Below, one piece after another: positions 4,853-25,192 of a stretch of DNA of 64,000 nt. The DNA comes from Streptosporangium becharense (lineage in GTDB: Bacteria > Actinomycetota > Actinomycetes > Streptosporangiales > Streptosporangiaceae), in contig NZ_JACHMP010000001.1 in assembly GCF_014204985.1 (NCBI RefSeq), forward strand, positions 1,364,001-1,428,000, in the 5' to 3' direction. The notes under the pieces are model-generated. The model saw only the letters and a list, made by a program, of their open reading frames with translations. It did not search any database and was not told the DNA's origin. The position numbers were made by a program, and so were the translations under genes. Positions within the stretch are counted from its first letter, which is position 1; each line of letters opens with the position of its first letter.

Positions 4853-4874
4853 ACACCCCTAGGCCCCCCTAAAG
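4853..4874 (-). promoter_or_regulatory. Cluster-wide G-rich box, copy 1 (upstream of the ligase-decarboxylase-PKS operon)
   Basis: On the minus strand two half-sites TAGGGG lie exactly 10 bp apart (CCCCTA at 4856-4861 and 4866-4871 on the plus strand), pointing at the gene starting at 4740, about 115 bp away. The promoter-proximal half-site is followed by TGTGGC. The same arrangement recurs at four other cluster promoters. The rest of the 337-bp gap 4741-5077 shows no gene. Confidence 0.55.
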
Positions 4875-5055
4875 AAATCGGCCGGCACCGGATCACGCTG
4901 GGGTCGCCTTTGGAGGTCACCTTTCGGGGTCGGTTCGCCGATTTCCTTTCCACGGTTCCGTGAATGCCGCCCAAGGTGCTCTCCCGGCCGGGTCGGGTGT
5001 CCTTTCCCGCGACCCGCGCGGGCATCTGAGCCCGCACCGGCCCCGCTGCCGGCTC

Positions 5056-5087
5056 GGGCGCCTGCCCTCCGGCCGGCTCAGGCGCCC
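5056..5087 (-). terminator. Hairpin at the end of the adenylation gene
   Basis: Inverted repeat GGGCGCCTG / CAGGCGCCC (9 bp, 14-base loop), overlapping the stop codon of the gene ending at 5078. It may separate that gene from the next promoter. No T-run is visible. Confidence 0.35.
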
Positions 5088-6652
5088 TTTCCCGCACCGG
5101 ACAGGACGTCGACGGCCCGGTCGCGCAGGCCCGCCCTGTCGACCTTGCGGTTGGGGTTGAGCGGCAACTCGTCCATGTGCCGGTAGTGGCGGGGGATGAT
5201 GCCCGGCGGCAGGACCCTGCGGAGCTCGGCGGCGAGGTCCGCCGGCCGCGTGGGCGTCCCGGTGTAGAAGACGACGAGCTCGGTGACGCCGTTGATCGTG
5301 CTGCTCACGGTCACCGCGTCGGTGACGCCCGTGCAGCCGCACACGGCGTGATCGATCTCGGCGAGCTCGACCCGCCAGCCCTGCACCTGGACCTGGGCGT
5401 CGGCCCGGCCCAGGTAGACCAGCTCGCCGTTGGCCGCGCGGCGGATCCGGTCACCGGTGTTGTACCACAGGCGTCCGTCGCGCTCGGCGAACCGGCCCGC
5501 GTCGTCCGCCGGGTCGAGGTAGCCGGGGGTGGTCTGCGGCCCGGCGATCCACAGTTCGCCCTCGGTGTCCGAGGGCTGGCCGGCCTCGTCGAGCAGGACG
5601 TGGTCGTGCCCGTCGTTGACGGCGCCGATCGGCGACAGGCCGTTGACGCCCAGACCGGGGGAGGTCTCCTGGTTCCAGCGGTGGCCGGCGATGGTGATGG
5701 TCAGCTCGGTCGGCCCGTAGAGGTTCTCCAGCGTCGAGGCGTCCGCGGCGCGCTGCCAGTCGGTGGCGTCGGCGCACTTCAGCGCCTCACCCGCGAACAT
5801 GCTCCAACGCAGGCCGGGCATGGAGCCCGGCTCCAGGCCGCCCCTCCGGCGGACCATGGCGATCGCGCTCGGCGTGGAGAACCACACCGTGACCTCCTGT
5901 TCCCGCAGGAAGGCCGGCAGGTCCCGGTAGGCGTGCGGTGGCACGGCGACCGCGGTGGCCCCCGCCCCCCAGGCGCAGAACAGGTCGAACATCGCGCAGT
6001 CGAACGTCAGGTCGAAGGTCTGCGAGAAGACGTCGTCCGCGGTGAAGTCGTAGCGTCGGTCCAGGAAGGCGAAGTAGTGGGCGGTGTTGCCGTGGGTGAT
6101 CGGCACCCCCTTGGGCCGGCCGGTGGACCCCGAGGTGAACAGCACGTACGCGATGTCGGCGGCCTCGACCGGACGCGGGTGGGCGAGCGCGAGCGCGGGG
6201 TCGGGCGGGGAGGCGGCCGGGTCCAGGATCGCGACGTCCAGGCCCACGGCGCGCAGCTCGTCCGCCCGTGCCCGGCCCCGCTCGTCGACGACCAGCGCGG
6301 ACACCCCCGCCGCCTCGATCATCTGCCGGGTGCGGGCGGCCGGGAAGTCCGGCTGGAGCGGTACGACGGTCACCCCGGCGTACAGGCCGGCGAGCAGGCC
6401 CGTGTAGGCCGTGGCCCCCTTCGCCGCGAGCACCCCGACGGCTCCGAGGGGCACCGGGGTCCGGCGCAGCAGCGCGCCGGCCCACAGCAGCGCCGTCCGG
6501 TGCACCTCGGCGTAGGTCGCGGTGTCGGCACCCACCCGGAAGGCCGCCCCGCCGGGGGAGGCCGCGAGACCGCGCAGGAAACGCGCGTAGAGAGCACATG
6601 AGGTTTCCACGTTCATTTCCGTCCTAGGATATGGATTAGTGTCCGCGGTCAT
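5078..6652 (-). CDS. Stand-alone amino acid adenylation enzyme (VinM-like)
   Basis: 524 residues with NRPS A-domain motifs in order: FTSGSTGRPKG (A3), the FDLTFDCAMFDLF pocket segment (A4), NLYGPTE (A5), YNTGDRIRR (A7), GWRVELAEID (A8) and NPNRKVDRAGL (A10 lysine). No carrier or condensation domain is attached. I chose the ATG at 6652 because GAGGAG lies nine bases upstream; ATGs at 6715 and 6616 are in frame and also possible. In vicenistatin-type pathways the equivalent enzyme attaches a small amino acid such as L-alanine to the free amine of the ACP-bound starter as a temporary protecting group. It faces the ACP gene at 6858 across a 205-bp divergent promoter region. Confidence 0.85.
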   Translation of the reverse strand: MTADTNPYPRTEMNVETSCALYARFLRGLAASPGGAAFRVGADTATYAEVHRTALLWAGALLRRTPVPLGAVGVLAAKGATAYTGLLAGLYAGVTVVPLQPDFPAARTRQMIEAAGVSALVVDERGRARADELRAVGLDVAILDPAASPPDPALALAHPRPVEAADIAYVLFTSGSTGRPKGVPITHGNTAHYFAFLDRRYDFTADDVFSQTFDLTFDCAMFDLFCAWGAGATAVAVPPHAYRDLPAFLREQEVTVWFSTPSAIAMVRRRGGLEPGSMPGLRWSMFAGEALKCADATDWQRAADASTLENLYGPTELTITIAGHRWNQETSPGLGVNGLSPIGAVNDGHDHVLLDEAGQPSDTEGELWIAGPQTTPGYLDPADDAGRFAERDGRLWYNTGDRIRRAANGELVYLGRADAQVQVQGWRVELAEIDHAVCGCTGVTDAVTVSSTINGVTELVVFYTGTPTRPADLAAELRRVLPPGIIPRHYRHMDELPLNPNRKVDRAGLRDRAVDVLSGAGKGA

Positions 6653-6857
6653 TTCGGCGTCCTCCTCGGAAAGCGATGGAACAATTTCCTGTATTTCATC
6701 GGGAACGGTGGACATCCCCCCGGCGCCGCGCTAGCTTGAACGGCAGCGGAACCGATACCGCAGCCGCGCCCGGCATGGGCGCCATTCCTGGGGTGAATCC
6801 CGCGGATCGCGGCCCCCTTCCACACGAACTCCCCGCTGAGAAGGGAAATCGATTTCC

Positions 6858-7106
6858 ATGTGGGATGATCGGTTCGAGGAGATCCTGCGCCGGCAGCTTC
6901 CCTTTCTGCCGCCCGACGAGAGGATCGAGGAGGGCACGGGCCTGTCCGACCTCGGTCTCGACTCGCTCGGCATCGTCGAGCTGCTCTCCTGTCTGGAGGA
7001 GGAGTACGGCGTGCACTTCCGGGACGAGGCGCTGACCATGGAGACCTTCAGGACTCCGGGCACGCTCTGGAAGACCCTGTCGGAGATGCTCAGACCCGTC
7101 GCCTGA
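6858..7106 (+). CDS. Discrete acyl carrier protein for starter unit (VinL-like)
   Basis: 82 residues, acidic. Phosphopantetheine site is Ser36 in LGLDSLGIVELL, with the usual four-helix ACP length. ATG at 6858, preceded by a GAAGGGA stretch about 12 bases upstream. It should carry the amino acid through adenylation, decarboxylation and capping before the acyltransferase hands it to the PKS. Unlike its partner genes it is on the plus strand, between the divergent adenylation gene and the convergent acyltransferase gene, so it needs its own promoter. Confidence 0.9.
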   Translation: MWDDRFEEILRRQLPFLPPDERIEEGTGLSDLGLDSLGIVELLSCLEEEYGVHFRDEALTMETFRTPGTLWKTLSEMLRPVA

Positions 7107-7116
7107 CCGGCGGCGC

Positions 7117-7158: not shown

Positions 7159-7178
7159 TCATCGACGTCCCGTCCCGC

Positions 7179-8129: not shown

Positions 8130-8133
8130 ATGG

Positions 8134-9202: not shown

Positions 9203-10336
9203 TCACCAGCCCTTTCTGATCGTCTCGACGACGTGCTCGCGCTGCTCGTCGGTGACCCACGAGCCGACGGGGACGCAGACGACGCGCGGGGCGACGCGTT
9301 CGAGGTTGGGCAGCAGCGCGGAGTACTCGCGTACGCAGGTGTGCAGGTCGTTGCGCTCGTGCACGTTGCTGACCATGATCCCGGCGTCGTCCATGCGCTT
9401 CATGAACGACTCACGGTCCTCGACCTTCATCGGGTAGATCCAGAAGGACGACTCGCGGTCGCCGGCCCGCTCGGTCAGCTCCAGGCCGGGGATCCCGGCG
9501 AGCTCGCGGTCGTAGAAGGCGGCGTTGTCTCGGTGCCGGGCCAGCACCCGGTCGACCTCGGCCAGGTTGGCCCGGCCGATCGCGGCGTTGATGTCGTTCA
9601 TGTGGAACTTGAAGCCCCACTCGGGCACGTCCGGGGGGTTGCGCAGCCGGTCGGCGGTGCGGTCGATGCCGAACCAGCGCAGCAGCCGGGCTCGCCGGTG
9701 CAGCTCGTCGGTGGGCAGCACGAGCGCGCCGCCGTCACCGCTGGTCAGGTGCTTGATGGCCTGGAAGCTGAAGACGCAGATGTTGCCGTGGGTGCCGATC
9801 GGGGTGCCGCGGTAGGTGGCACCCCAGGCGTGCGCGGAGTCCTCGATCACCGCCGGGCGGAACCCGAACCTGGCCTCGGCCTCGTCCAGGATCGCGGCGA
9901 GGCGGTCGAGGTCGACCGGGTAACCGGCGAAGTGCACCACCATGATGGCGCGCGTCCGGGGGGAGATCTTCCGGGCGAGGTCGTCGAGGTCGACGTTGAG
10001 GGTGGCCGGGTCGACGTCGACCCAGCGGATGCGCAGCCCGTTGGCCAGGATCGCCCAGTTGGTGGCCTCCATGGTCAGCGGCGTGGACAGCACCTCGCCC
10101 TCGGGGTCGTGCGCGTGACCCGCGGACGCGGGGCCGCCCGCGACCATGTGCACGGCGAGCTGCAGCCCGGAGGTGGCGCTGTTGACCGTGGCCACCCTGG
10201 GGTTGCCGATCCTGCCCGCCAGTTCCCGCTCGAACTCATCGACCTCGGTGCCCTGGCCGATCCGGCCGCTGCCCAGGACCCGGGCGGCCGCGGCGGGCGC
10301 GGCGGCGGACATCGACACGCTGAACAGTGGGATCAT
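9203..10336 (-). CDS. DegT/DnrJ/EryC1-family sugar aminotransferase
   Basis: 377 residues, PLP-dependent. Schiff-base Lys195 in FSFQAIKHLTSGDGG, EDSAHAWGATY motif, and the family N-terminus IPLFSVSM. Start ATG at 10336 has GGAG seven bases upstream; longer in-frame ATGs are less likely. The family transfers an amino group from glutamate to a nucleotide-linked keto-deoxysugar. It is 28 bp downstream of an RmlC-like epimerase and shares a cluster with RmlA and RmlB, so a dTDP-linked amino-6-deoxyhexose is the likely product. Whether amination is at C3 or C4 cannot be told by eye. Confidence 0.88.
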   Translation of the reverse strand: MIPLFSVSMSAAAPAAAARVLGSGRIGQGTEVDEFERELAGRIGNPRVATVNSATSGLQLAVHMVAGGPASAGHAHDPEGEVLSTPLTMEATNWAILANGLRIRWVDVDPATLNVDLDDLARKISPRTRAIMVVHFAGYPVDLDRLAAILDEAEARFGFRPAVIEDSAHAWGATYRGTPIGTHGNICVFSFQAIKHLTSGDGGALVLPTDELHRRARLLRWFGIDRTADRLRNPPDVPEWGFKFHMNDINAAIGRANLAEVDRVLARHRDNAAFYDRELAGIPGLELTERAGDRESSFWIYPMKVEDRESFMKRMDDAGIMVSNVHERNDLHTCVREYSALLPNLERVAPRVVCVPVGSWVTDEQREHVVETIRKGW

Positions 10337-10364
10337 GATCGGCTCCAAACGGTCCGCGGGGTCG

Positions 10365-10976
10365 TCATCCGGTGAAGGCGTGGTCGGCGAGTTCGGCGTA
10401 ACGGGCCCTGCAGTCGGCGTACGCGGGCAGCAGCCCGCGCTCGGCGAGCTCACGCAGGGAGGGGGCGGCACGGTCCTTGTCCGACAGCAGCAGCTCGTAC
10501 CCGGTCGGCCAGGGCAGGGCGAGCTCCGGGTCCAGCGGGTCGATCTGGATCTCCCGCTCGGGGGACCAGGTGCTGGAGCAGAGGTAGACGACCGTGGCGT
10601 GCTCCGTCAGCGGCGCGAAGCCGTGCGCGAGTCCTTCGGCCAGGTACAGGGCCTGCCGGTTGTCGGCGCTCAGCTCCACCGCGACGTGCCGGCCGTAGGT
10701 GGGCGAGCCGGTCCGGATGTCGACGAGGATGTCGACGATGGCCCCCTGCGCGCAGGTCACGTAGCGGGCCTGGCCGGGGAGGGCCGCGGCGTGCAAGCCG
10801 CGGATCGTCCCGCGCCGGGAGACCGAGCAGTTGACCTGGGCGACCGAGAGCGGGTGGCCGACCGCCTCGCGGAACGCCGGCTGGCTGAACGTCTCCAGGA
10901 ACAGGCCCCGGTCGTCGGAGAAGACCTTGGGGGTGACCAGGTACGAGCCGTCCACCGCGAGCTGGTGGATCTGCAT
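10365..10976 (-). CDS. dTDP-4-keto-6-deoxyhexose 3,5- (or 5-) epimerase, RmlC family
   Basis: 203 residues, cupin fold. RmlC-type motifs: DDRGLFLETF, the RGLH catalytic histidine segment, VDIRTGSPTYG and LAEGLAHGF. ATG at 10976 follows AAAGG at eight bases. It is the first gene of the leftward sugar unit. It is clearly homologous to the protein at 26359-26952; one may act at C3 and C5 and the other at a single carbon, or one may be redundant. Full RmlC length argues against a 3,4-ketoisomerase, which is much shorter. Confidence 0.88.
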   Translation of the reverse strand: MQIHQLAVDGSYLVTPKVFSDDRGLFLETFSQPAFREAVGHPLSVAQVNCSVSRRGTIRGLHAAALPGQARYVTCAQGAIVDILVDIRTGSPTYGRHVAVELSADNRQALYLAEGLAHGFAPLTEHATVVYLCSSTWSPEREIQIDPLDPELALPWPTGYELLLSDKDRAAPSLRELAERGLLPAYADCRARYAELADHAFTG

Positions 10977-11343
10977 GTCCGAAACCTTTCTGGGGATCTG
11001 TCGTCTGCCGGGGAACCGCTTCCAGGAAACCGACCGGTGCGACCGGCGGGCGCCTTCCCGGCGGAAAACGCGCGGAATCGCACCTCCGGGAAAACAACCG
11101 GGAAAGAAGCCGGGAAAAGCGCGCGCGAGCGCACTCGGTTCGGCACGTCCTGCCGATAAAGTGTCCGCCGCCTCACGCCGCCTTTCCGGAAGGCGCGTTC
11201 CCACCCCTTCACGTCGTCTTCCCGCCGTCGCCGGTCCGCCGCCGGGACGGATCCGGCGGGCGTCTCACCGGCCCGGCGGGACGGCGCCCGGCGGTCGCTT
11301 CCCGCCGACATCGCTCATGCTGGTCGGCGGTCCGCCTCCGGAC

Positions 11344-11361
11344 AACCCCTAGCCGCCCCTT
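11344..11361 (-). promoter_or_regulatory. Cluster-wide G-rich box, copy 2 (toward the epimerase-aminotransferase operon)
   Basis: On the minus strand AAGGGG and TAGGGG lie 10 bp apart (CCCCTA at 11346-11351, CCCCTT at 11356-11361 on the plus strand). The inner half-site runs directly into TTGTCC, a possible -35. Same orientation rule as the other copies. Confidence 0.55.
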
Positions 11362-11433
11362 AACGGCGGGGGCGGCCCCGGTGACCTCGCGGTACCCGTC
11401 CGGCCGGCGGCGGGAACGCGGACAGGAAATCCA

Positions 11434-11457
11434 CTAGGGGTGCGATAAGGGTTGGTG
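11434..11457 (+). promoter_or_regulatory. Cluster-wide G-rich box, copy 3 (toward the ethylmalonyl-CoA operon)
   Basis: Plus-strand CTAGGGGTGCG followed by ATAAGGGTTGG gives half-sites 11 bp apart. The inner one runs into TTGGTG, and CATATAG follows at 11471-11477. The first gene starts at 11640. Confidence 0.55.
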
Positions 11458-11639
11458 CGCGCATCGCCGGCATATAGCGTTTCGGGCACGGGCCGGGTAG
11501 AACACGGCGGATTTCTGCCCCGTGACCCCGAACGTTTCCCGGCCGTCGTCGAACGGCCGCTCCCTTAACCGACTTTCCTGGGGGTGCCCCACGTGCACGG
11601 AAATACGCCCCGTACCGTATCTATTTTTCCTGGGAATGG

Positions 11640-13070
11640 ATGATGGCGTTGACCGTCGGCTACCCGAGCACCGAGTCGGAGAGCGGGCTCGACCCGCGCA
11701 CGCCGGCCGTGCGTCTGGCCCGCCTGCTCGACCCCGGCTCAGTGGTGCCGCTGCACGAGCGGGACGACAGCGGCGTCTCCGCCGTGCGCGGCCGTGTCGC
11801 GGGCCTCAATGTGATCGCCTACTGCACCGACGCCACCGACATGGGCGGTGCGATGGGCGCCGCGGGCTCCCGCAGGATGGTGGACGCCATTGACACGGCC
11901 CTGCGGGAGGGCCTGCCGGTGATCGGCCTGTGGCACTCGGGCGGCGCACGGCTGGCCGACGGCGTCGAGTCGATGGACGGCGTGGGCAGGGTGTTCGCCG
12001 CGATGACCCGCGCCTCGGGCCGGGTGCCGCAGGTGTCGGTCGTCCTGGGGCCGGCGGCGGGCGCCGCGGCGTACGGGCCCGCGCTGACCGACGTCGTGAT
12101 CATGGCGTCGGCCGGCCGGATGTTCGTGACCGGCCCCGACGTGGTGCGCGCGGTCACCGGCGAGCAGATCGACATGGAGTCCCTCGGCGGCGTCGTCGCG
12201 CACGGCCGCAAGTCGGGGGTGGCGCACGTGGTGGTCGGCTCCGAGGAGGAGGCCTACGAGCGTGCGCGCGCGACGACCGAGCTGCTCGCCCGCAGGTCGG
12301 TCGTCGACCCCGGCGCGGTGGGTGAGGGCTCCGACCTGCGGGCACTGCTGCCGGACAACCCCCGGCGGGCCTACGACGTGCGGCCACTGGTGCGCGAGAT
12401 CCTCGACGGCGACGCGCCGTTCGTGGAGATGCAGCCCGGCTGGGCGGCCAACGTGGTCGTCGGTCTCGGCCGGCTGGCCGGGGCGAGCGTCGGCGTGGTC
12501 GCCAACAACCCGTTGCGCAAGGGCGGCTGCCTGGACTCACTGAGCGCGGAGAAGGCGTCCAGGTTCGTCCGCATGTGCGATGCGTTCGGCGTGCCGCTGG
12601 TGGTGATCGTCGACGTGCCCGGCTACCTGCCCGGCGTCGGGCAGGAGTGGGGCGGGGTGATCCGGCGCGGGGCGAAGCTCCTGCACGCCTTCGCCGAGGC
12701 CGTCGTCCCCCGGGTCACGCTGGTCACCCGCCAGTCGTACGGCGGCGCGTACATCGCGATGAACTCCCGTTCCCTGGGGGCGACCGCGGTGTTCGCCTGG
12801 CCCCAGGCGCGGATCGCGGTGATGAGCGCCGAGGCCGCCGTCGGCGTGCTGCACCGCAAGCGGCTCGCCGCCGCCCCCGAGGACGAGCGGGAGGCGCTGC
12901 GGCTCCGGCTCGTCGAGGAGCACACCCGCACTGCCGGAGGAGTCGGCCGGGCGATGTCCATCGGCGTCGTCGACGAGGTCATCGAACCGGTGCACACCCG
13001 GCGCAGGCTCGCCGAGGCCCTCGCCGCCGCCCCGGCCGACCGCGGCCGCCACGGAAACATCCCTCTCTGA
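11640..13070 (+). CDS. Acyl-CoA carboxylase, carboxyltransferase (beta) subunit
   Basis: 476 residues. The N half has the carboxybiotin site (HSGGARLADG, VLGPAAGAAAYGPA). The C half has the acyl-CoA site (VDVPGYLPG, RQSYGGAYIAM, FAWPQARIAVM). It would carboxylate a short acyl-CoA with a biotinylated alpha subunit encoded elsewhere, supplying methylmalonyl- or ethylmalonyl-CoA. The residue that by my alignment corresponds to the specificity Asp of propionyl-CoA carboxylases is Thr382 (GATAVFAWP), so propionyl-CoA preference should not be assumed. ATG at 11640 with GGGA upstream; ATG at 11643 is equally possible. First gene of a four-gene rightward operon. Confidence 0.87.
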   Translation: MMALTVGYPSTESESGLDPRTPAVRLARLLDPGSVVPLHERDDSGVSAVRGRVAGLNVIAYCTDATDMGGAMGAAGSRRMVDAIDTALREGLPVIGLWHSGGARLADGVESMDGVGRVFAAMTRASGRVPQVSVVLGPAAGAAAYGPALTDVVIMASAGRMFVTGPDVVRAVTGEQIDMESLGGVVAHGRKSGVAHVVVGSEEEAYERARATTELLARRSVVDPGAVGEGSDLRALLPDNPRRAYDVRPLVREILDGDAPFVEMQPGWAANVVVGLGRLAGASVGVVANNPLRKGGCLDSLSAEKASRFVRMCDAFGVPLVVIVDVPGYLPGVGQEWGGVIRRGAKLLHAFAEAVVPRVTLVTRQSYGGAYIAMNSRSLGATAVFAWPQARIAVMSAEAAVGVLHRKRLAAAPEDEREALRLRLVEEHTRTAGGVGRAMSIGVVDEVIEPVHTRRRLAEALAAAPADRGRHGNIPL

Positions 13071-13133: not shown

Positions 13134-14537
13134 ATGGACCCCATGGCCGAAGCGCTGCTCGGCGGGGCGACCCCCGAGCAGCTGGCGCGGACCCCGCTTC
13201 CCGAGGAGTACGTCGCCGCCCACCTGCGGGTGGAGGACGTCGAGATGTTCACCGGCATCGACGACAAGGACGTGCGCAAGTCGTTGCGCGTCGGCGCGGT
13301 GCCGATGCCCGAGCTGGCCCCGGACGAGGTCCTGGTCGCGGTGATGGCCAGCTCGATCAACTACAACACCGTCTGGTCGGCGATCTTCGAGCCGTTGCCG
13401 ACGTTCTCCTTCTTGAAGCGGTTCGGCGCCACGGGCGGGTTCGCGGGCCGGCACGACCTGCCGTACCACGTCCTGGGCTCCGACGGCGCCGGGGTGATCG
13501 TCCGGGTCGGCAGCGGGGTGCGCCGCTGGCGGGTGGGCGATCACGTCGTGATGAGCCCGGTCCAGGTCGACGACCAGGAACCGGGTACGCACGGCGACGG
13601 CATGCTCGGCGCCGAGCAGCGCGTCTGGGGCTTCGAGACGAACTTCGGCGGGCTGGCCGAGTACACGGTGGTGCGCGCCAGCCAGCTGGTCCCCAAGCCC
13701 GCCCACCTGACCTGGGAGGAGGCCGCCTGTATCACGCTGTGCGCGGGGACGGCCTACCGCATGCTGGTCAGCCGCCAAGGCGCGTGCATGAAGCAGGGCG
13801 ACATCGTGCTGATCTGGGGGGCGACCGGCGGGCTCGGCGCGTTCGCCGTGCAGATGGTCAAGAACGGCGGCGGCATCCCGGTCGGGGTGGTCGGCTCCGA
13901 GACGAAGGCCAGGGCACTGGAGCGGCTCGGCTGCGACATCGTCATCAACCGCAACGAGATCGGGATGGGCGAGGACGGCCCGCCGAGCCCGGAGCGGACG
14001 ATCGAGCTGGGCAGGCGTCTGGGGAAGGTCATCCGGGAGCGGGCGGGCGGTGACCCGCACATCGTCTTCGACTACATCGGCCAGGCGACGTTCGGGATCT
14101 CGGTGTTCGTCGCCCGGCGCGGCGGCGTGGTCGTCACCTGCGGTTCCAGCACGGGCTACCAGCACCACTTCGACAACCGCTACCTGTGGATGAACCTCAA
14201 GCGCATCGTCGGCAGCCACGCGGCGAACCTTCAGGAGCTGTGGGAGTGCCTGCGCCTGTTCGACCTGGGCATGCTGGTGCCGACCCTGTCGACGGTCTAC
14301 CCGCTCGCGGAGGTCGCCGAGGCCACCCGGCTGGTGCAGACCAACGGGCACCTCGGCAAAGTCGGGGTGCTGTGCATGGCTCCCGAGGCCGGCCTGGGCG
14401 TCACCGATCCGGGGTTGCGCGCGAGGATCGGCGAGGAGCGGCTGAACCCGCTGCGCGGCCCGGGCTTCCCGGCCGCCCCGGCTCCGGGCGCGCTCGCGAA
14501 CGGGCACGGCGACCTCGTCTCCGCCAGGAAGGCGTAA
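13134..14537 (+). CDS. ccr: Crotonyl-CoA carboxylase/reductase
   Basis: 467 residues, medium-chain dehydrogenase/reductase fold. It turns crotonyl-CoA, NADPH and CO2 into (2S)-ethylmalonyl-CoA. NADPH-binding loop is WGATGGLGAFAVQ. The four residues known to hold CO2 in the Kitasatospora setae enzyme (Asn81, Phe170, Glu171, His365) correspond, at a constant offset of three, to Asn78, Phe167, Glu168 and His362 here. Carboxylation competence is therefore expected, not simple reduction. ATG at 13134 follows GGAAGG. Its neighbours supply the crotonyl-CoA precursor, and the product would give ethyl branches in the polyketide. Confidence 0.94.
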   Translation: MDPMAEALLGGATPEQLARTPLPEEYVAAHLRVEDVEMFTGIDDKDVRKSLRVGAVPMPELAPDEVLVAVMASSINYNTVWSAIFEPLPTFSFLKRFGATGGFAGRHDLPYHVLGSDGAGVIVRVGSGVRRWRVGDHVVMSPVQVDDQEPGTHGDGMLGAEQRVWGFETNFGGLAEYTVVRASQLVPKPAHLTWEEAACITLCAGTAYRMLVSRQGACMKQGDIVLIWGATGGLGAFAVQMVKNGGGIPVGVVGSETKARALERLGCDIVINRNEIGMGEDGPPSPERTIELGRRLGKVIRERAGGDPHIVFDYIGQATFGISVFVARRGGVVVTCGSSTGYQHHFDNRYLWMNLKRIVGSHAANLQELWECLRLFDLGMLVPTLSTVYPLAEVAEATRLVQTNGHLGKVGVLCMAPEAGLGVTDPGLRARIGEERLNPLRGPGFPAAPAPGALANGHGDLVSARKA

Positions 14538-15557: not shown

Positions 15558-16414
15558 GCGAGATCCGGAGGGTCGGCATCGTCGGATGCGGTGTCATGGG
15601 GTCGGGCATCGCCGACGTGTGCGCCCGCGCCGGGCTGGAGGTGCGGGTCGCGGTGTCCGGTGAGGCGTCGGCGGCCCGGGGCCGCCGGCGGCTGTCGAAG
15701 TCGCTCGACTACGGCCTGCGCAAGGCGGTGATCACCGAGGCGGAGCGGGACGGGGCCCTGGAGCGGGTCTCGTTCACCACCGACCTGGGCGACCTCGCCG
15801 ACCGGCAGATCGTCTTCGAGACCGCCCCGGAGAACGAGTCGGTCAAGCTCGACGTGTTCGGCGCGCTGGACAAGATCGTGGAGGATCCCGCCGCGATCCT
15901 GGCGTCGAACACCTCGTCCATCCCGATCATCAGGATGGCGCGCGCCACCGGGCGGCCCGGCCAGGTGATCGGCGTGCACTTCTTCAACCCGGTCCCGGTG
16001 CTGCCCCTGGTGGAGCTGATCGGCTCGCTGCTGACCGAGGACGAGACCCGGGTCCGGGCGGAGGCGTTCGTCGCCGTGACGCTCGGCAAGCAGGTGATCC
16101 ATTCACCCGACCGCGCGGGCTTCGTGGTCAACGCGCTGCTCATCCCGTACCTGCTGGCGGCGATCCGGATGGTGGAGACGGGCTTCGCCACCGCCGACGT
16201 CATCGACCAGGGGATGGTGCTGGGCTGCTCCCACCCGATGGGGCCGCTCAAGCTCGCCGACCTGATCGGGCTGGACACGGTGGCCTCCATCGCCGTGGCC
16301 CTGTACGAGGAGTTCAAGGATCCGCAGTACTCTCCCCCGCCGATGCTGCTGCGCATGGTCGAGGGCGGTCTTCTCGGCAGGAAGACCGGGCGGGGCTTCC
16401 ACTCCTACTCCTGA
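15554..16414 (+). CDS. 3-hydroxybutyryl-CoA dehydrogenase
   Basis: 286 residues. N-terminal Rossmann motif VGIVGCGVMGSGIA, NTSSIPI substrate segment, catalytic histidine in GVHFFNPVPVLPLVE, then the helical dimerisation domain. Start ATG overlaps the KAS III stop (ATGA). It reduces acetoacetyl-CoA to 3-hydroxybutyryl-CoA, completing the in-operon route to ethylmalonyl-CoA. No dedicated crotonase is present, so dehydration must be done by a housekeeping enzyme. Confidence 0.92.
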   Translation: MSEIRRVGIVGCGVMGSGIADVCARAGLEVRVAVSGEASAARGRRRLSKSLDYGLRKAVITEAERDGALERVSFTTDLGDLADRQIVFETAPENESVKLDVFGALDKIVEDPAAILASNTSSIPIIRMARATGRPGQVIGVHFFNPVPVLPLVELIGSLLTEDETRVRAEAFVAVTLGKQVIHSPDRAGFVVNALLIPYLLAAIRMVETGFATADVIDQGMVLGCSHPMGPLKLADLIGLDTVASIAVALYEEFKDPQYSPPPMLLRMVEGGLLGRKTGRGFHSYS

Positions 16415-17768: not shown

Positions 17769-17782
17769 CCCCCCTAAATCCC
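17769..17782 (-). promoter_or_regulatory. Single G-rich half-site toward the thioesterase gene
   Basis: Minus strand TTTAGGGGGGCTTGGCG: a TAGGGG half-site followed by TTGGCG. The outer half-site is poorly conserved, so this copy is weaker than the others. Confidence 0.35.
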
Positions 17783-17790: not shown

Positions 17791-17815
17791 ATAAGGGTGA
17801 ATAGGGGGTTTGCAT
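17791..17815 (+). promoter_or_regulatory. Cluster-wide G-rich box, copy 4 (toward the LAL regulator gene)
   Basis: Plus-strand ATAAGGGTGA and ATAGGGGGTTTG, half-sites 10-11 bp apart, ending in TTTGCA. If the LAL protein binds here, the gene is self-regulated. Confidence 0.5.
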
Positions 17816-18109
17816 TTTTGACAGATCATGGAGATGATCCCGCAGGAGCGTATACGAAGTCGCTTCCGCACCATATACACGACATCGTGATGAAACTACG
17901 TACAGAGGAATGATGAAATAACACGCTGCGACGTGATGAAACCCGGGAGAGCCGCCGTCCTCCGGCAAGACCCTTCCGGAGAAGCGTAAATCTCGACCCG
18001 GCCAGCAGGAGAAGGCAGGCGAAGAAGGAGCTCCCGCCTTTCGCCCGCCGGCCGCCGCCGTTCCACCACCTCCTTTCATCTAGGCATGCAGGGGCGAACG
18101 GGGAGCCCG

Positions 18110-20860
18110 ATGACGTTAATTGAGCGGGATACCGATATCACGCATCTCACAGATCTGCTCACGGAGTGCAGGAGGGGCAGGGGTCGCGTCGCGACGATCA
18201 CCGGCCCCACCGCGACGGGGAAGACCGAACTCGTGTACGCCTTCAGCCGCCGCGCGGCCGAGGCCGGGGTCACCTGGCTGAGCGCGACCTGCTCCCAGGC
18301 GGACCGGAACCTGCCGTTCGGCGTGGTGAGCCAGCTCTTCCACAGCGCGGCGCTCTCCATCGACCACGCCTCCCGGGCGGCCAGGCTCGTGGAGGACGCC
18401 TCCCTCGGCGCAGGGGCGTCGGGTGCGCGGCCCCAGGAGTCCGAGTGGCTGCGCACGACCCAGGGCCTGTGGTCGGTCATCCTTGAAATATCAAATAAAA
18501 ACACCGTCCTCATCACGGTGGACGACGTCGAATACGCCGACTCGCTGTCGTGGCAGATTCTTCTCAATTTCGTGCACCGCCTGAAGAGCGCCAACGTATT
18601 CATCATCCTCACCGCCGCCGAGGGCCCGCAGGGCATGGACCCCCTTATCGAGATCGACCTCATGCGCCACCCCCATTACGAGCGCATCGGGCTGACCTCC
18701 CTCTCTTTCCAGGGCGTCATGGGCATGGTTTCCGCGTCCATGGGCGACGCCGCCGCGGTCGCGCTCGGACCGGCGTTCCACAGAATCACCGGGGGTAACC
18801 CGCTGCTGGTCAAGGCGTTGATGGACGACCACCGCGGCGCGGGCGCCGGTGACAGGGAACCGGCCGTGTCCGACGGTTTCTCCCGGTCGGTCCGCGCTCT
18901 GTTGCACCGCAGCGACCCGACGATGCTGATGGTCGCCCGCGCTCTCGCGGTGCTCGGGGAATTCGCCCTTCCCATTCTGCTGTCCGAATTACTGGACATC
19001 AGGACGACCACCGTCAACCAGGCGCTGAACTGCCTCGACGCCGTCGGGATCCTCGACTCCCTGCGTTTTCGTCACCCCGCGGCCCAGGCGGCGGTGCTCG
19101 ACGACCTCGACCCCTCACAACGCCGGGAGATGCACCGGCGGGCCGCGCAGCTCCTGCACGCCGAGGGTGCGGCGGCCACGGTGGTCGCCGCGCACCTCAT
19201 CGAGGCCGAGCGCTTCCAGGAGCCCTGGGCACTGGCCGAGCTGCGCGAGGCCGCCGACCAGGCGTTGCGGGACGACCGGCACGAGTTCGCGGTGCAGTGC
19301 CTCAGGCTCGCCGCCGAACTGACCGACAACGACAGGCAGCGCACGCGGACCACGACGATGCTGGCGCAGGCGGAGTGGCGCATCAACCCGGCCGCCGCCA
19401 ACCGGCACGTCGAGCCGCTCCTCGATGCCGCCCGCGAGGAGCGGCTGAGCTTCCGCGGACTGTACGCGCTGCTGAGGTTCCTGCTCTGGTACGGGCAGCA
19501 CGACGAGGCCGTGGAGGTGCTGGGGCGGATGGCCGGGCGGGCCGCCGAACCGGGAGCGGACGACGCCGCCGCCCGGCTCGACGCCGTCCGCCGCTGGCTG
19601 TCGTGCACGCACCCCTCCGTGCTCGCCCGTGCCGGCGGGGGCACCGTCACCGGCGGGGCGGACACCCCGGCCCCGGGTTCGCACCCGCGGGGAGCAGGGG
19701 CCACGCTGCTGGCCTCCATGCTGCGCGACGGCCCGGACGCCGGCACGGCCGACGCCGCCGAGCGCGTCCTGCGCTCCGCCACCCTGGACGAGGCGAACCT
19801 GGACGCCGCGGAGTCGGCGCTGTTCTCCCTGATACACGCGGATCGGACGGACAAGGCCGCCTCCTGGTGCGACGTGCTGTACGCCGAGGCCGTCCGGCGC
19901 CGCTCCCCCACCTGGCGTGCCCTGTTCGCCTCCCTGCGCGCGAGCATCGCCATCCGCCAGGGTGACCTGGTGGCGGCCGAGAAGTACGCCCGCACGGCGC
20001 TGGACATCCTGCCGCCGCGCAGCCTGGGCGTCCGCATCGGGTTGCCGCTGGCCGCGCTGGTGAGCGCCACCACGGAGATGGGCAAGTACGACGTCGCCGC
20101 GCAGTACCTCAGGCAGCCGGTCCCGGACACGATCTTCGAGACCCGGTTCGGGCTGTACTACCTGCAGGCGCGGGCCCGTTACCATCTGGCGACCGACCAG
20201 GCGCACGCCGCGCTCAGCGACTTCTCCGACTGCGGGCGGCTGATGCGCGACTGGGAGCTGGACACCCCCACGCTCGTGCCCTGGCGTCACGGTGCCGCCG
20301 CCGCGCTGCTCCAGATGGGTCAGCAGGAGCAGGCACGCGCGCTCCTGGAGCAGCCCTACGACCTGGCGAGCGGCGACTCGCTGCGGATCCGGGGCATCGC
20401 GCAGCGCCTGCTCGCCGCGGCCAGCGACCTGCGGCAGCGGCCCCCGCTGCTCCGCGAGGCGATCGACATGCTCCAGACCGCGGGAGACCGCCTGGAGATG
20501 GCCTACGCGCTGGTGGACCTCACCCACACGCTCAACGAGCTGGGCGAGCCCAACAAGGCACGGATGATCGGCTACCGGGCCGACAGCGTGGCCGGCGAGT
20601 GCCGGGCCGAACCGCTGCGGCAGGCCGTGCGGCACAGCACCGACGGCGGCGAGAGCGGTGGCGGCCCGGAGGCGATCAGCGTGCTCAGCGACGCCGAGCA
20701 GCGCGTGGCCTCGCTCGCCGCCCTGGGCTACACCAACCGCGAGATCTCCAGGAAGATCTACATCACCGTCAGCACGGTGGAGCAGCACCTGACCCGCATC
20801 TACCGCAAGCTCAACGTGCGGGGCCGCAGGGACCTGCCCGCGCAGTTCTCCCAGATGTGA
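18110..20860 (+). CDS. LAL-type LuxR transcriptional regulator, probable cluster activator
   Basis: 916 residues. N-terminal ATPase with Walker A GPTATGKT (32-39) and Walker B VLITVDDVEYAD (Asp138-Asp139), a long helical TPR-like middle, and a C-terminal LuxR helix-turn-helix (LSDAEQRVASLAALGYTNRE and following). ATG at 18110 has GGGAG five bases upstream, better than the ATG at 18086. Codons 3 and 294 are TTA (18116-18118 and 18989-18991), so translation should depend on the rare bldA-type leucine tRNA and be delayed in growth. It is the only large pathway-specific regulator seen and probably acts through the G-rich boxes. Confidence 0.93.
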   Translation: MTLIERDTDITHLTDLLTECRRGRGRVATITGPTATGKTELVYAFSRRAAEAGVTWLSATCSQADRNLPFGVVSQLFHSAALSIDHASRAARLVEDASLGAGASGARPQESEWLRTTQGLWSVILEISNKNTVLITVDDVEYADSLSWQILLNFVHRLKSANVFIILTAAEGPQGMDPLIEIDLMRHPHYERIGLTSLSFQGVMGMVSASMGDAAAVALGPAFHRITGGNPLLVKALMDDHRGAGAGDREPAVSDGFSRSVRALLHRSDPTMLMVARALAVLGEFALPILLSELLDIRTTTVNQALNCLDAVGILDSLRFRHPAAQAAVLDDLDPSQRREMHRRAAQLLHAEGAAATVVAAHLIEAERFQEPWALAELREAADQALRDDRHEFAVQCLRLAAELTDNDRQRTRTTTMLAQAEWRINPAAANRHVEPLLDAAREERLSFRGLYALLRFLLWYGQHDEAVEVLGRMAGRAAEPGADDAAARLDAVRRWLSCTHPSVLARAGGGTVTGGADTPAPGSHPRGAGATLLASMLRDGPDAGTADAAERVLRSATLDEANLDAAESALFSLIHADRTDKAASWCDVLYAEAVRRRSPTWRALFASLRASIAIRQGDLVAAEKYARTALDILPPRSLGVRIGLPLAALVSATTEMGKYDVAAQYLRQPVPDTIFETRFGLYYLQARARYHLATDQAHAALSDFSDCGRLMRDWELDTPTLVPWRHGAAAALLQMGQQEQARALLEQPYDLASGDSLRIRGIAQRLLAAASDLRQRPPLLREAIDMLQTAGDRLEMAYALVDLTHTLNELGEPNKARMIGYRADSVAGECRAEPLRQAVRHSTDGGESGGGPEAISVLSDAEQRVASLAALGYTNREISRKIYITVSTVEQHLTRIYRKLNVRGRRDLPAQFSQM

Positions 20861-20990: not shown

Positions 20991-20994
20991 CGGT

Positions 20995-22536
20995 TCACTC
21001 GGTGCGGGCGTCCGCGGTGGAGGCGTCCACCCGCACCTTCCGGAGAAGGATCGTGGCCAGTACGGCCGTCGCCGCCATGAGGACCGTGCCCATGAGCGCG
21101 GCGACCTGCATACCCCCGGTGAACGCCGCCCGTGCGACGTCGAGCAGCTCCGCCCCGGCCTGTTCCGGCAGCCGGCCGGCCACCCCGACCGCGCCGCCCA
21201 GGGTCTCGCGGGCCGCCTCGGCGTCCTCGGGGGACAGTTCGGCCGGGGCCGCCGTGGTGAACTCGTCGCGGTAGACGGCGAGGCCGACGCTGCCCAGGAT
21301 GGCGATGCCGAGCGCACCGCCGAGCTCGGTCGCGGCCTCCAGGACGGCGGAGGCCGAACCGGCGCGCTCCGGCGGGGCGACCGCGACGATCATGTCGGAG
21401 GCCAGCGCCTGCACCGCGCCGATCCCCGCTCCCAGCAGGACCAGGCCGACGATCAGCACCCACCGCTCGGAGTCGACGTCGACCTGGCTCATCGCCAGGA
21501 AGCCCGCGGCGCCGAGCGCCATGCCGCCGCCCATGATGTGCCCGGGACGGACCCGCTGGGCCAGCGCGGCGGCCAGGATCGAGCCGACCAGGGCCATACC
21601 GGCCGCCGGCAGCGTCAGCAGCCCCGCGACGAACGGCCGCAGCCCCAGCACCATCTGCAGGTACTGCGCGATGAAGTAGAACAGGCCGACCAGCGCGAAG
21701 ATCGCGAGCGTGCTCGTGATCAGCGACATGGTGAAGCCGCGACCGGCGAACAGCCGCAGGTCGAGCATCGGGTCGGGCAGCTTGCGCTGCCTGTTCAGGA
21801 ACGCGGCCCCGATCAGCAGTCCGGCGACGACGCTCAGCACCGACACGGCGCCGAAGTCGTCGGCGGCGAACTGCTTGACCCCGTAGACGATCGGCAGCAC
21901 CGCCGCCAGCGACAGTACGGCACTGAGCAGGTCGAACCTGCCGGGGTCGGGGTCACGGTACTCGGGCAGCAGGATCGGCCCCAGCACCAGCAGCAGCAAC
22001 ATGACGGGAACGTTGATCAGGAAGACCGAACCCCACCAGAAGTGCTCCAGCAGCCAGCCGCCCACGATCGGCCCGAGCACGCTTCCGCCGGCGAAACTCG
22101 CCGCCCACAGGGCGATGGCCATCCGGCGCTGCCGCTGGTCGTGGAACATGTTGCGGATCAGCGCGAGGGTGGGCGGCATCAGGCTCGCGGCCGCGGCTCC
22201 CTGCAGAGCGCGGGCCGCGATGAGCAGGTCGGCGTTGGGTGCGTACGCGGCGATGACCGAGGTGATCCCGAACGCCGTGGCGCCGAGCAGCAGCAGCTTG
22301 CGGCGGCCGATCCGGTCGCCCAGGGTGCCCATCGTGATCAGCAGGCCGGCCAGCAGGAAGGCGTAGATGTCGACGATCCACAACAGCTGCGACCCGGTGG
22401 GGGACAGGTCGGCGCTCAGGAAGGGCAGTGCGAAGTACAGCACTGTCACCGTCACCGAGATGAGCAAGACAGGCAGGACCAGCACGGCGAGCCCGAGCCA
22501 CTCCTTCCGTCCGGCCGTCGTCACGTCTCGTACCAC
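20995..22536 (-). CDS. MFS drug exporter, 14-TM DHA2 type
   Basis: 513 residues with about 14 hydrophobic segments. Motif A GTLGDRIGRRK lies between TM2 and TM3, and motif C-type glycines are in GGSVLGPIVGG. GTG at 22536 is chosen because GAGGAG lies seven bases upstream; an ATG at 22566 lacks a ribosome site. Proton-driven export of a hydrophobic or cationic compound is expected, probably the cluster product and hence self-resistance. Divergent from a TetR-family regulator with palindromes between them. Confidence 0.92.
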   Translation of the reverse strand: MVRDVTTAGRKEWLGLAVLVLPVLLISVTVTVLYFALPFLSADLSPTGSQLLWIVDIYAFLLAGLLITMGTLGDRIGRRKLLLLGATAFGITSVIAAYAPNADLLIAARALQGAAAASLMPPTLALIRNMFHDQRQRRMAIALWAASFAGGSVLGPIVGGWLLEHFWWGSVFLINVPVMLLLLVLGPILLPEYRDPDPGRFDLLSAVLSLAAVLPIVYGVKQFAADDFGAVSVLSVVAGLLIGAAFLNRQRKLPDPMLDLRLFAGRGFTMSLITSTLAIFALVGLFYFIAQYLQMVLGLRPFVAGLLTLPAAGMALVGSILAAALAQRVRPGHIMGGGMALGAAGFLAMSQVDVDSERWVLIVGLVLLGAGIGAVQALASDMIVAVAPPERAGSASAVLEAATELGGALGIAILGSVGLAVYRDEFTTAAPAELSPEDAEAARETLGGAVGVAGRLPEQAGAELLDVARAAFTGGMQVAALMGTVLMAATAVLATILLRKVRVDASTADARTE

Positions 22537-22570
22537 GGTCTCACTCCTCAAGTACTTTGTACGCATGAAG

Positions 22571-22589
22571 GTGCATACATCGTACGCAC
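22571..22589. promoter_or_regulatory. Probable operator in the exporter promoter
   Basis: Imperfect inverted repeat GTGCATAC-ATC-GTACGCAC (7 of 8 positions match), 35 bp upstream of the exporter start. A likely binding site for the divergent TetR-family protein. Confidence 0.5.
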
Positions 22590-22732
22590 ACTCCTGCGGG
22601 ACGCACAACGCCCACCCGTCCGGGACACCTCCCGGTTTCCCCGGGAAATCCCAGGAAACAAGGGGGAGTCAATCCATCCGCAGCCGTCCGGCGTACATTA
22701 ACGTCACACGCCGGCTCCCAATTACGTCACAG

Positions 22733-22744
22733 AACACATGTGTT
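22733..22744. promoter_or_regulatory. 12-bp palindrome upstream of the TetR-family gene
   Basis: Perfect palindrome AACACATGTGTT, 50 bp before the regulator start codon. Possible autoregulatory operator. It differs in sequence from the repeat near the exporter. Confidence 0.4.
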
Positions 22745-22793
22745 AGAGTTTCGTCACGCACAGCCTGGTGAGACAGAGCCGAGCGAGGGACCC

Positions 22794-23795
22794 ATGTTGA
22801 TGTGCGCACAGTGTGGAAAGCCGTTGCAGGCCGCGCCCCGGGGGCGGCGCCCCCGGTACTGTTCGCGGGCGTGCCAGGCGCGGGCGTACCGGTCCCGCGC
22901 CGCCGAACGCGTCGCGCCGCCCGCCGCCGAGCCGGCCGCCACCCGGACGGCGGTGCCCGCCGTCCGGACCGTTCTCCCGTCCGCGGACGGAACCGGCGAG
23001 TCCGCGGGTTACGACGATCTCGGCGATGCCCGCCCCGTGACGGGCGAGCACGCGGCGGCCACGCCGGAGGGCTCCGAACTCCGGAGCGGGTTGAGCACCG
23101 AGCGGATCGTACGCGCCGCGATCCGCATCGCCGACGCCGAAGGACTGGACGCGCTGTCCATGCGCCGGGTCGCGACCGAGCTCGGTGCGGGCACGATGTC
23201 GCTGTACCGCTACGTGCTGGGCAAGGACGCGCTGATCGAGCTGATGGTGGACGCCGTCTTCGGTGAGAACGCATACCCGGCTCCCGTTCCCGGGAACTGG
23301 CGCGCGAGGCTGGAGGCGGCCGCGCGGCGGGAGTGGACGATGTACTCCAGACACCCCTGGGTGCTGCGGGTCATCGCCACGCCCCGCCCTCCCCTCGGGC
23401 CGAATCTGCTCACCGACGTCGAGTGGACGATGCGAGCCCTGGACGGTCTGGGCCTGGACTCCAGGACGATGCAGTGGGTGGCCACCATGGTGAGCGCACA
23501 GGTGCAAGGCGCGGCGCTGATGCTGGTGAACGAGGCGGAGACCGAGCGGCGCACCGGCGTCACGACACCGCAGTGGCGCGCGTCGAAGACGCCGATGCTC
23601 CGGGAGATCCTGGAATCCGGCCGGTTCCCGATGCTGTCCCGGTTCTACGCCGAGCAGGGCGACCAGATCGACATCGACGAGTGGTTCGAGTTCAGCCTGC
23701 GGCGTCTCCTCGACGGCCTCGCCGTGCTGATCGAGCACCGGGAGGGAGAACCCTGCGGCAGGGGGGCGGACCCGGTGGGCGGGATGGTCGGGTAG
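22794..23795 (+). CDS. TetR-family regulator with N-terminal zinc ribbon
   Basis: 333 residues. Residues 1-33 carry Cys4, Cys7, Cys23 and Cys27 (CAQCGKP and CSRACQARAYR), a probable zinc ribbon. A Pro/Ala-rich linker leads to a TetR helix-turn-helix at about 105-145 (SMRRVATELGAGTMSLYRYV). The C-terminal ligand domain resembles tetracycline-repressor types. ATG at 22794 has GAGGG five bases upstream. Divergent from the MFS exporter, which it presumably represses until the product or a related ligand binds. Confidence 0.88.
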   Translation: MLMCAQCGKPLQAAPRGRRPRYCSRACQARAYRSRAAERVAPPAAEPAATRTAVPAVRTVLPSADGTGESAGYDDLGDARPVTGEHAAATPEGSELRSGLSTERIVRAAIRIADAEGLDALSMRRVATELGAGTMSLYRYVLGKDALIELMVDAVFGENAYPAPVPGNWRARLEAAARREWTMYSRHPWVLRVIATPRPPLGPNLLTDVEWTMRALDGLGLDSRTMQWVATMVSAQVQGAALMLVNEAETERRTGVTTPQWRASKTPMLREILESGRFPMLSRFYAEQGDQIDIDEWFEFSLRRLLDGLAVLIEHREGEPCGRGADPVGGMVG

Positions 23796-23823
23796 CGGGG
23801 AGAGGGCGGTCCGGCCGGGCCCG

Positions 23824-24123
23824 TCATTCGGCGATTCTCGTGCGGGTCGTCCACCGGAAGAGCAACGGTTCCCGGCCGTCGGCCCCCGGCGACTCCTCAT
23901 GCCACTCGAAGTGCTCGTAGCCATTGTTACGGGGAATCTTTATCTTTCCCCCCGCGGCCATCACCCCGTCGACGCGGAGCGTACGCGGAATATCGGCCGG
24001 GCCGCCCTCGAGTATGACGTCGACATCCGCCCGGTCGGACGCCGGGGAAACAAATCCGGGATGAATACGGCTTTCCGTCCCGGCGCCTGGGGCGCCGTCG
24101 GCCGGACCGGTGGAAACATGCAC
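23824..24123 (-). CDS. DUF5988-like small protein
   Basis: 99 residues. Conserved-looking parts are VDVILEGGPADIPRT, KIKIPRNNGYEHFEW and FRWTTRTRIAE, the pattern I associate with DUF5988, a family often found in antibiotic gene clusters and of unknown function. GTG start at 24123 has GGAGG eight bases upstream. It is 76 bp after rmlA on the same strand, so the two are probably cotranscribed. No transmembrane segment or catalytic motif is evident. Confidence 0.7.
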   Translation of the reverse strand: MHVSTGPADGAPGAGTESRIHPGFVSPASDRADVDVILEGGPADIPRTLRVDGVMAAGGKIKIPRNNGYEHFEWHEESPGADGREPLLFRWTTRTRIAE

Positions 24124-24199
24124 CTGGAATACCTCCGATCGGTGTTCTCACCTGATGTGATCCGTGTTCCCGGGCCGGCCACCGCCCGGTGCCGGTGGT

Positions 24200-25072
24200 T
24201 CAGCCGAACTCCGCGGCGACCGCGCGCACGTACCGCCCGTAGCTGGAGGCGGCGAGTTCGGCCCCCAGCCTGTCGCAGGCCTCCGCGTCGATGAAGCCCA
24301 TGCGCAGGGCGATCTCCTCGACGCACGCGATGCGCACACCCTGCCGGTGCTCCAGCACCTGCACGTACTGGCTGGCCTGGAGGATGGACTCCGGGGTCCC
24401 GGCGTCCAGCCAGGCGAACCCCCTGCCCAGGTCGTACAGCCGGGCCTTGCCCCGGTCGAGGTAGGTCCGGTTGACGTCGGTGATCTCCAGTTCGCCCCGG
24501 GGGGACGGCCTGAGGTTCTTGGCGATGTCGATCACGTCGTTGTCGTAGAGGTACAGGCCGACGATGGCGCGGTTGGACCGCGGCCGCTCGGGCTTCTCCT
24601 CGATGGACAGCAGCCTGCCCTCGGCGTCCGTCTCCCCGATGCCGTAGCGCTCGGGATCGCTGACCGGGTAGCCGAACAGCACACACCCGTCCACGTCCGT
24701 GACGTTCTCCTGGAGGATGTCGTAGAAGGAGTGCCCGTGGAAGATGTTGTCCCCGAGCACCAGGGCCACCGTGTCGCCGCCGATGTGGTCCGCTCCGACG
24801 ATGAACGCGTCCGCCAGGCCCCTCGGCTCGTCCTGCTGGGCGTAGCTGATGGTGAGACCGAGATGCGATCCGTCCCGCAGCAGGCGGGCGATCTGAGGCA
24901 GGTCGGTGGGCGTGGAGATGACCAGGATGTCCCTGATGCCGGCGAGCATGAGCGCCGACAGCGGATAATAGATCATCGGTTTGTCGTTGACGGGCAGAAG
25001 CTGCTTGGAGACGGCAAGCGTCAGCGGATATAGCCTCGTGCCGTGACCGCCCGCGAGAATGATGCCTTTCAT
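24200..25072 (-). CDS. rmlA: Glucose-1-phosphate thymidylyltransferase
   Basis: 290 residues, normal for the short RmlA type. Nucleotide-binding motif GIILAGGHGTRLYPLT, then SKQLLPVNDKPMIYYPL, LVLGDNIFHG and EEKPERPRSN. It makes dTDP-glucose from glucose 1-phosphate and dTTP, the entry step to dTDP-deoxysugars. ATG at 25072, AAGGG nine bases upstream. A paired G-rich box about 95-120 bp upstream ties it to the polyketide cluster instead of cell-wall rhamnose synthesis. Confidence 0.95.
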   Translation of the reverse strand: MKGIILAGGHGTRLYPLTLAVSKQLLPVNDKPMIYYPLSALMLAGIRDILVISTPTDLPQIARLLRDGSHLGLTISYAQQDEPRGLADAFIVGADHIGGDTVALVLGDNIFHGHSFYDILQENVTDVDGCVLFGYPVSDPERYGIGETDAEGRLLSIEEKPERPRSNRAIVGLYLYDNDVIDIAKNLRPSPRGELEITDVNRTYLDRGKARLYDLGRGFAWLDAGTPESILQASQYVQVLEHRQGVRIACVEEIALRMGFIDAEACDRLGAELAASSYGRYVRAVAAEFG

Positions 25073-25164
25073 GGAAAAGCCCTTCGTGGCGAAGCCAGCC
25101 GGCGGGAGTAGATGGATGGCTGACCGTTGGGGAGAAGACTCACACGGGCCATAGACGCCATCAA

Positions 25165-25192
25165 CCCCCTACCGGCGCCTCCCGTCCCCCTA
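25165..25192 (-). promoter_or_regulatory. Cluster-wide G-rich box, copy 5 (toward rmlA)
   Basis: Minus strand carries two TAGGGGG half-sites 21 bp apart (two helical turns) with a weaker G-rich stretch between. The inner one runs into TTGATG. Located in the 264-bp rmlA-rmlB divergent gap. Confidence 0.5.

Follow-up and report, generated by a model that had tools for sequence, protein, structure and literature searches.

What joins the separate promoters of a type I polyketide synthase (PKS) cluster in Streptosporangium becharense, and which protein might read the signal? The question is raised by a stretch of 64,000 nucleotides (positions 1364001-1428000 of contig 1 in the 7.82-Mb genome, hereafter the window), which holds the right part of such a cluster. 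A sequence-only reading of the window had proposed that a G-rich element, TAGGGG or TAAGGG (together TARGGG), stands in pairs at five promoters in the geometry of a class II activator site, and that these promoters form one regulon. Among the pathway-specific activators of polyketide clusters LAL proteins are frequent, and the window encodes one at 18086..20860 on the plus strand. From the sequence comparisons described below, we judge it probable (roughly 0.83) that TARGGG is the operator of this cluster-situated activator and unifies the promoters as its regulon.

Paired TARGGG half-sites precede five promoters of the cluster

An exact pattern search confirmed the paired element and relocated its half-sites to within 1-3 bases of where they had first been placed. 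All five pairs consist of directly repeated half-sites, and each carries its G-rich strand along transcription, facing the next gene, as had been claimed. The first pair (S1), on the minus strand, reads TAGGGG-N4-TAGGGG, with the outer half-site at 4866-4871 and the inner at 4856-4861, 10 bp from start to start. It lies 5' of the adenylation enzyme/starter and PKS genes, with a likely ATG at 4740, and a -10 box, TAACGT (4826..4831, minus strand), stands 24 nt past the inner half-site. S2 (minus strand; outer 11357-11362, inner 11346-11351) reads TAAGGG-N5-TAGGGG with a start-to-start distance of 11 bp, abuts TTGTCC, and precedes the rmlC-like, aminotransferase, hydrolase and VinK-like genes; its candidate -10, CAGCAT at 23 nt, differs from TANNNT by one letter. 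On the plus strand, S3 (outer 11435-11440, inner 11446-11451) reads TAGGGG-N5-TAAGGG, again 11 bp from start to start, abuts TTGGTG, and stands 5' of a carboxyltransferase gene set with a -10 box, TAGCGT (11475..11480, plus strand), 23 nt past the inner half-site.

S4 (plus strand; outer 17792-17797, inner 17802-17807; TAAGGG-N4-TAGGGG, start-to-start 10 bp) is followed by GTTTGCA and lies 278 bp 5' of the start of the LAL open reading frame (ORF), with no recognisable -10. The widest pair, S5 (minus strand; outer 25187-25192, inner 25166-25171; TAGGGG-N15-TAGGGG, start-to-start 21 bp), is followed by GTTGATG and lies 93 bp 5' of rmlA, where GAGTCT, one letter off TANNNT, occurs at 24 nt. A single TAGGGG at 17771-17776 on the minus strand (S6) is divergent from S4 and points towards the thioesterase gene; it has no partner and no clear -10. 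It had further been claimed that TTGnnn or TTTGCA comes immediately after the inner half-site in four of the five pairs. Literally, this holds for two of them (11346, TTGTCC; 11446, TTGGTG); one G intervenes at 17802 and at 25166, and TGTGGC comes next at 4856.

Could pairs of this kind arise by chance or from the composition of G-rich sequence? Single half-sites are at expectation in the window (19 seen, 19.9 expected), so their density shows no enrichment, and the sites were chosen after reading, both of which would suit an artefact. Against this, the window holds four N4/N5 pairs and none appeared in any of 400 Markov simulations (200 of order 1 and 200 of order 3). The whole genome contains five TARGGG-N4/5-TARGGG pairs, four of which are those of the window, lying inside 13 kb. 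A similar pair rate outside the cluster had been named in advance as the result that would count against a cluster element, and the genome-wide count shows no such rate. Together with the recurrence of the element in other genomes at a fixed distance from the -10 box and the negative controls, both described below, this leaves chance with a vanishingly small probability. Pairs spaced by N12-18 number four genome-wide, S5 among them. Two genome scans allowing two mismatches were uninformative, returning at least 438 and at least 404 matches, with a reversed-pattern control even higher. Scanning the left flank with a matrix added a single weak match (L004 4635, minus strand). Outside the cluster, a triple TAGGGG with spacings of 22 and 11 occurs at G000:C1:4370728-4370766 (L005 10728-10766), ~4.6 kb from a groEL gene, with no LAL there among the matches listed for the genome.

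The element accompanies LAL relatives in other genomes

The proposed binder is a protein of 924 aa with an AAA_16 domain at residues 11-174 and a C-terminal GerE/LuxR helix-turn-helix (HTH) at 866-917, whose recognition helix reads STVEQHLT. It thus combines the N-terminal ATPase, the C-terminal LuxR HTH and the size of a LAL protein, for which a range of ~870-1160 aa is given in the accessible part of one report (PMC6022917). It has no close paralogue in its own genome, the next match having an E value of 1.6e-15 among the matches listed.

We searched 60 genomes separately for LAL homologues (E <=1.4e-115) and for N4-6 pairs, collapsing overlapping pairs from 114 to 107. Of the 74 collapsed pairs in the 22 other genomes with such a homologue, our own excluded, 10 were at most 20 kb from it and 15 at most 50 kb, against 0.40 and 0.99 expected if, as in all our co-localisation expectations, sites are taken to be evenly spread over genome sizes that were rounded or assumed. 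Such a pair within 20 kb was found in eight of the 22. Two-turn pairs (N14-16) stand beside the LALs of genomes that have no one-turn pair nearby (G001, G003, G007 and G009, for example). A homologue in three pieces at G006:C3:40513-43053, either a broken gene or a sequencing error, was not counted as a homologue; a two-turn TARGGG pair lies alongside it at 44480.

Counted by locus, the element is present at 39 of 57 LAL-clade loci (stretches of 10-40 kb), with a phased pair in 32 and a half-site with its -10 in 29, and in none of 23 control stretches (20 kb) or 20 stretches around more distant LALs (11-20 kb). The loci are not fully independent, near-identical sites occurring in G001/G007, G003/G009, G029/G095 and G060/G200. 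The stretch fetched for the triple site (L005) was kept out of the -10 and locus-count controls and included in the spacing control. The shared regulon of the sequence-only reading extends beyond the window, the elements adjoining relatives of this LAL gene elsewhere. A strict pattern, TAGGGGTTG-N20-22-TANNNT, was sought in 296 genomes of the class; it matches in 21 of the 39 that have the clade (at E 1e-60) and in 14 of the 257 that lack it, the former being larger genomes overall. In the clade genomes, 10 of its 30 matches fell within 20 kb of a LAL, with 0.26 expected. Three near-alike promoter-like sites of the form TAGGGGTTG...TAGCAT were seen in a genome without the clade at that threshold (G145:C22:97767, C24:55120 and C34:53796).

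Co-localisation alone does not name the binder. Another regulator that travels with LAL polyketide clusters could bind the element, with the LAL gene a mere marker, and a TetR-family gene does lie nearby at 22740-23795. The recognition helix bears on this. As aligned by tblastn in the clade stretches where it could be aligned, it reads STVEQHLT in 55 of 56 and STIEQHLT in the other. Of 10 distant LALs none has STVEQHLT, and the majority read RTVExHLT; the search did not presuppose the helix letters. Helix letters and element thus co-occur, as expected were LAL the reader. Given that the element's presence tracks these letters, and that it is missing from all 20 distant-LAL stretches, we regard a different travelling regulator as quite unlikely. 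One stretch of the clade (L014), on a contig filed under Dietzia cercidiphylli, has a LAL HTH with STVEQHLT and a TAGGGG pair with a -10, and is possibly foreign DNA in the assembly.

The inner half-site keeps a fixed distance to the -10 box

For the distance between half-site and promoter we compared 28 near-LAL sites (five from the window, three from named loci and 20 from relatives, keeping one of three overlapping L050 rows) with 20 far pairs as controls. A TANNNT box at offsets 21-25 from the inner half-site was present at 13 of the 28, always at 23-25, and at none of the 20; 5,000 shuffles gave a mean of 1.6 and a maximum of 7 for the near-LAL count. Around the 57 LAL-clade loci, taking all half-sites whether paired or not, TANNNT stands at 23-25 in 51 of 485, against a mean of 1.3 for other offsets. 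At offset 34 there is a lesser peak (n=10), as the outer half-sites of 11-bp pairs would give. By set, the proportions were 18/244 in the first relatives plus the window and 2/29 at the named loci. In stretches fetched once the rule was set, they were 14/104 (new genomes of the same family) and 17/108 (other families).

Neither altered letters nor unrelated DNA reproduced this. With TANNNT at offsets 22-25, single-letter variants gave 9/1074 (CAGGGG), 1/949 (TGGGGG), 5/997 (GAGGGG) and 7/2218 (TCGGGG), and two permuted motifs 5/556 and 6/1173. Control DNA totalling 495 kb held 98 half-sites, none with a -10 at the fixed offset, and zero direct pairs within 60 bp; around the 20 more distant LALs, none of 56 half-sites had a -10 at 23-25.

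A fixed distance to the -10 box is also what would be seen if TARGGG were itself a promoter part read by an alternative sigma factor rather than an activator site. A separation of 23-25 nt exceeds the spacer of sigma factors, and tandem upstream copies would have no role for one. Moreover, the element follows the LAL gene across genomes, and a sigma-factor element is accordingly a very improbable account. The element instead adjoins or overlaps the -35 at a fixed distance from the -10, as class II activator sites do, a layout that is clear in the window for S1 and S3 only. Both the shared regulon and the class II geometry of the sequence-only reading thus gain support from the co-localisation with LAL genes elsewhere, the -10 at 23-25 nt and the absence from controls, with LAL as the putative binder.

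Spacing between half-sites is preferred rather than strict

Same-strand pairs up to 60 bp apart were collected from the first 46 LAL stretches, including the window. Spacings of 10-12 (17 pairs) or 21-23 (14 pairs) account for 31 of the 39, five of them supplied by the window, and the remaining eight comprise all other spacings. In the spacing control, L005 contributes spacings of 11, 22 and 33. Two later sets were weaker: the first had 4+3 phased pairs and 11 off-phase, seven of the latter coming from L146 and L148, where tandem repeats are short, and the second had 8+3 phased and eight off-phase. On these counts the pairs have a preferred spacing, and the term fixed is kept for the -10 distance. 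Separately, six CCCYTARGGG palindromes, with half-sites on opposite strands at an offset of 4, occur in LAL neighbourhoods and could represent another binding mode.

Direct repeats near one helical turn apart bring to mind the operators of SARP regulators, heptameric direct repeats with 4-bp spacers (an 11-bp period) near the -35. The CGGCAAG repeats of PimR, as described in the accessible part of its report, are alike in being direct repeats about one turn apart, with 4-bp spacers, in antibiotic-cluster promoters, and unlike TARGGG in their letters (PMC3367932). SARP-type BTAD domains were matched ~15 kb or nearer to the LAL in G004, G005 (10580536), G015, G019, G026 and G029, among the matches listed. 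The LALs of G014, G018, G022 and G035, which have near pairs, show no adjoining BTAD among the matches listed. This genome has 27 BTAD matches, the nearest (1538874) ~157 kb from the LAL and none within 150 kb, which leaves no SARP near the cluster. Spacings of 10, 12, 21 and others also occur where a SARP operator would be fixed at 11, and a SARP as reader is hard to credit.

Several observations weigh against a LAL operator. Complete -10 boxes occur in the window at S1 and S3 only (2/5), TTG directly follows the half-site at just five of 28 near sites, and the next base is T at 12 of 20 far sites and at 18 of 28 near ones. Eighteen of the 57 LAL loci, among them three of the five named ones (both Streptomyces loci and that of Actinomadura terrae), lack the element in the stretch read. 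This genome has no match to the strict TAGGGGTTG...TANNNT pattern, and 16 of the 30 found in LAL genomes have no LAL within 100 kb. Spacings of 13, 14, 20, 24 and 30 are found with good -10 boxes, and the phased pairs of the later sets (7 and 11) are equalled or outnumbered by those of the best among 119 permuted motifs (7 and 12), the permuted motifs being about three times as frequent as TARGGG; strict helical phasing is weakened to that extent. A same-strand half-site within 600 bp 5' of the LAL match start was found for two of 21 genes including the window's own, that is for one of 20 relatives (L019 and L020, at contig ends, left out), and we reject autoregulation as a conserved feature of the clade.

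A proposed MalT-like mode of action with other letters

How might a LAL protein use such an element? By analogy with MalT, LAL subunits would assemble through their ATPase (STAND) part, and the assembled protein would bind TARGGG half-sites arranged as direct tandem repeats. Of these, the one nearer the promoter would lie just 5' of the -35, with its last base 23-25 nt before the TANNNT -10, so that the bound HTH could contact RNA polymerase from a class II activator site. One regulon would then take in the starter/PKS, sugar, ethylmalonyl-type precursor, LAL and rmlA promoters, with activation, cooperativity and autoregulation all predicted to be due to LAL. An autoregulatory loop through S4 belongs to the model as its least certain part, since S4 has no visible -10 and so few relatives carry an upstream half-site.

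The MalT boxes of E. coli and Klebsiella are a close parallel, as far as the accessible text describes them: MalT is likewise an activator with an ATPase and a LuxR HTH, and its boxes are G-rich asymmetric direct repeats with one box over the -35 (PMC7567727). Cooperative binding and polymerase contact are described for MalT in part of another report (PMC4381067). The layout found here, direct tandem half-sites with the proximal one at the -35, is of the MalT type. The letters differ, GGGGA(T/G)GAGG for MalT and TARGGG, mostly then T, here, so that the element is no MalT box, and this LAL scores 29 bits with the MalT model, whose cut-off is 537. Direct-tandem TARGGG would thus appear to work like MalT boxes, with other letters.

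Other known systems share some features, again judged from the accessible parts of their reports. A MalT-like regulator of Actinoplanes is also actinobacterial and acts over the -35 of 17 promoters of one region, and its motif, TCATCC-N5-GGATGA, is an inverted repeat with other letters (PMC7567727). PAS-LuxR regulators such as PimM have a LuxR HTH and bind CTVGGGAWWTCCCBAG in the -35 region of polyketide promoters, and the half-site CTVGGGA can hold TAGGG; there the reader is a small PAS protein and the box a 16-bp inverted repeat (PMC9774167), while TARGGG is direct-tandem beside a LAL gene and shows no C preference before TA, and so is no PAS-LuxR box. The statement that no published consensus matches thus needs qualification, the half-site being nearly that of PimM, there inverted. 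SCO6993 is a LAL-type protein with footprinted Streptomyces sites; it is a repressor, its sites are short inverted repeats without a consensus, and its authors found a consensus not predictable (PMC9628970). No LAL operator is given in the accessible parts of PMC6022917, PMC5015266, PMC3551636 and PMC6784220. In the literature searched, to the extent accessible, no operator common to LAL proteins is given and TARGGG is unreported as a LAL site; most subscription papers lay outside that scope, and this is no proof of absence.

Whether the rule extends beyond this cluster is a separate matter. We hold it reasonably likely, with less assurance than for the cluster itself, that direct-tandem TARGGG 23-25 nt 5' of the -10 is a general operator code of the STVEQHLT clade of actinobacterial LALs in several families. 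If true, the sequence by itself would suffice to read LAL regulons, those of silent clusters included. With an operator defined and its promoter geometry fixed, one could predict operons, the borders of clusters and unlinked LAL targets. It would also help in waking silent clusters, and would open class II activation by a STAND ATPase to tests beyond the enterobacterial MalT.

Genes of the cluster around the sites

The cluster encodes adenylation enzymes, a PLP-dependent decarboxylase, a VinK-like acyltransferase, a hydrolase, an aminotransferase, rmlC-like and rmlA-like proteins, an NAD-dependent epimerase/dehydratase, a carboxyltransferase/reductase/KSIII/hydroxyacyl-CoA dehydrogenase set, a thioesterase, the LAL regulator and a TetR/MFS pair. 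As known here from its genes alone, it resembles the beta-amino-acid macrolactam clusters of the vicenistatin/fluvirucin kind, as outlined in the accessible parts of two reports (PMC11284099, PMC10951976).

An acyl/aminoacyl adenylation enzyme (3181..4740, minus strand) comes first after S1, with same-strand PKS genes next, left of the window. Big minus-strand ORFs extend to ~37 kb left of the window, and the two that were scanned are PKS modules, one with a terminal thioesterase. After S2 lie a DegT/DnrJ/EryC1-type aminotransferase (9203..10471, minus strand) and the rmlC-like epimerase (longest ORF 10365..11204, minus strand), which probably starts near 10976, as its match begins at residue 79. 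S3 is followed by an acyl-CoA carboxyltransferase gene (11640..13070, plus strand), a zinc-type reductase gene (13134-14537) and, in the same set, a KSIII-like gene (14544-15557) and a 3-hydroxyacyl-CoA dehydrogenase gene (15554-16414). The rmlA-like nucleotidyltransferase (24200..25072, minus strand) comes after S5. The TetR-family gene (plus strand) adjoins that of an MFS transporter (20995-22608, minus strand), and the two are perhaps a local control pair.

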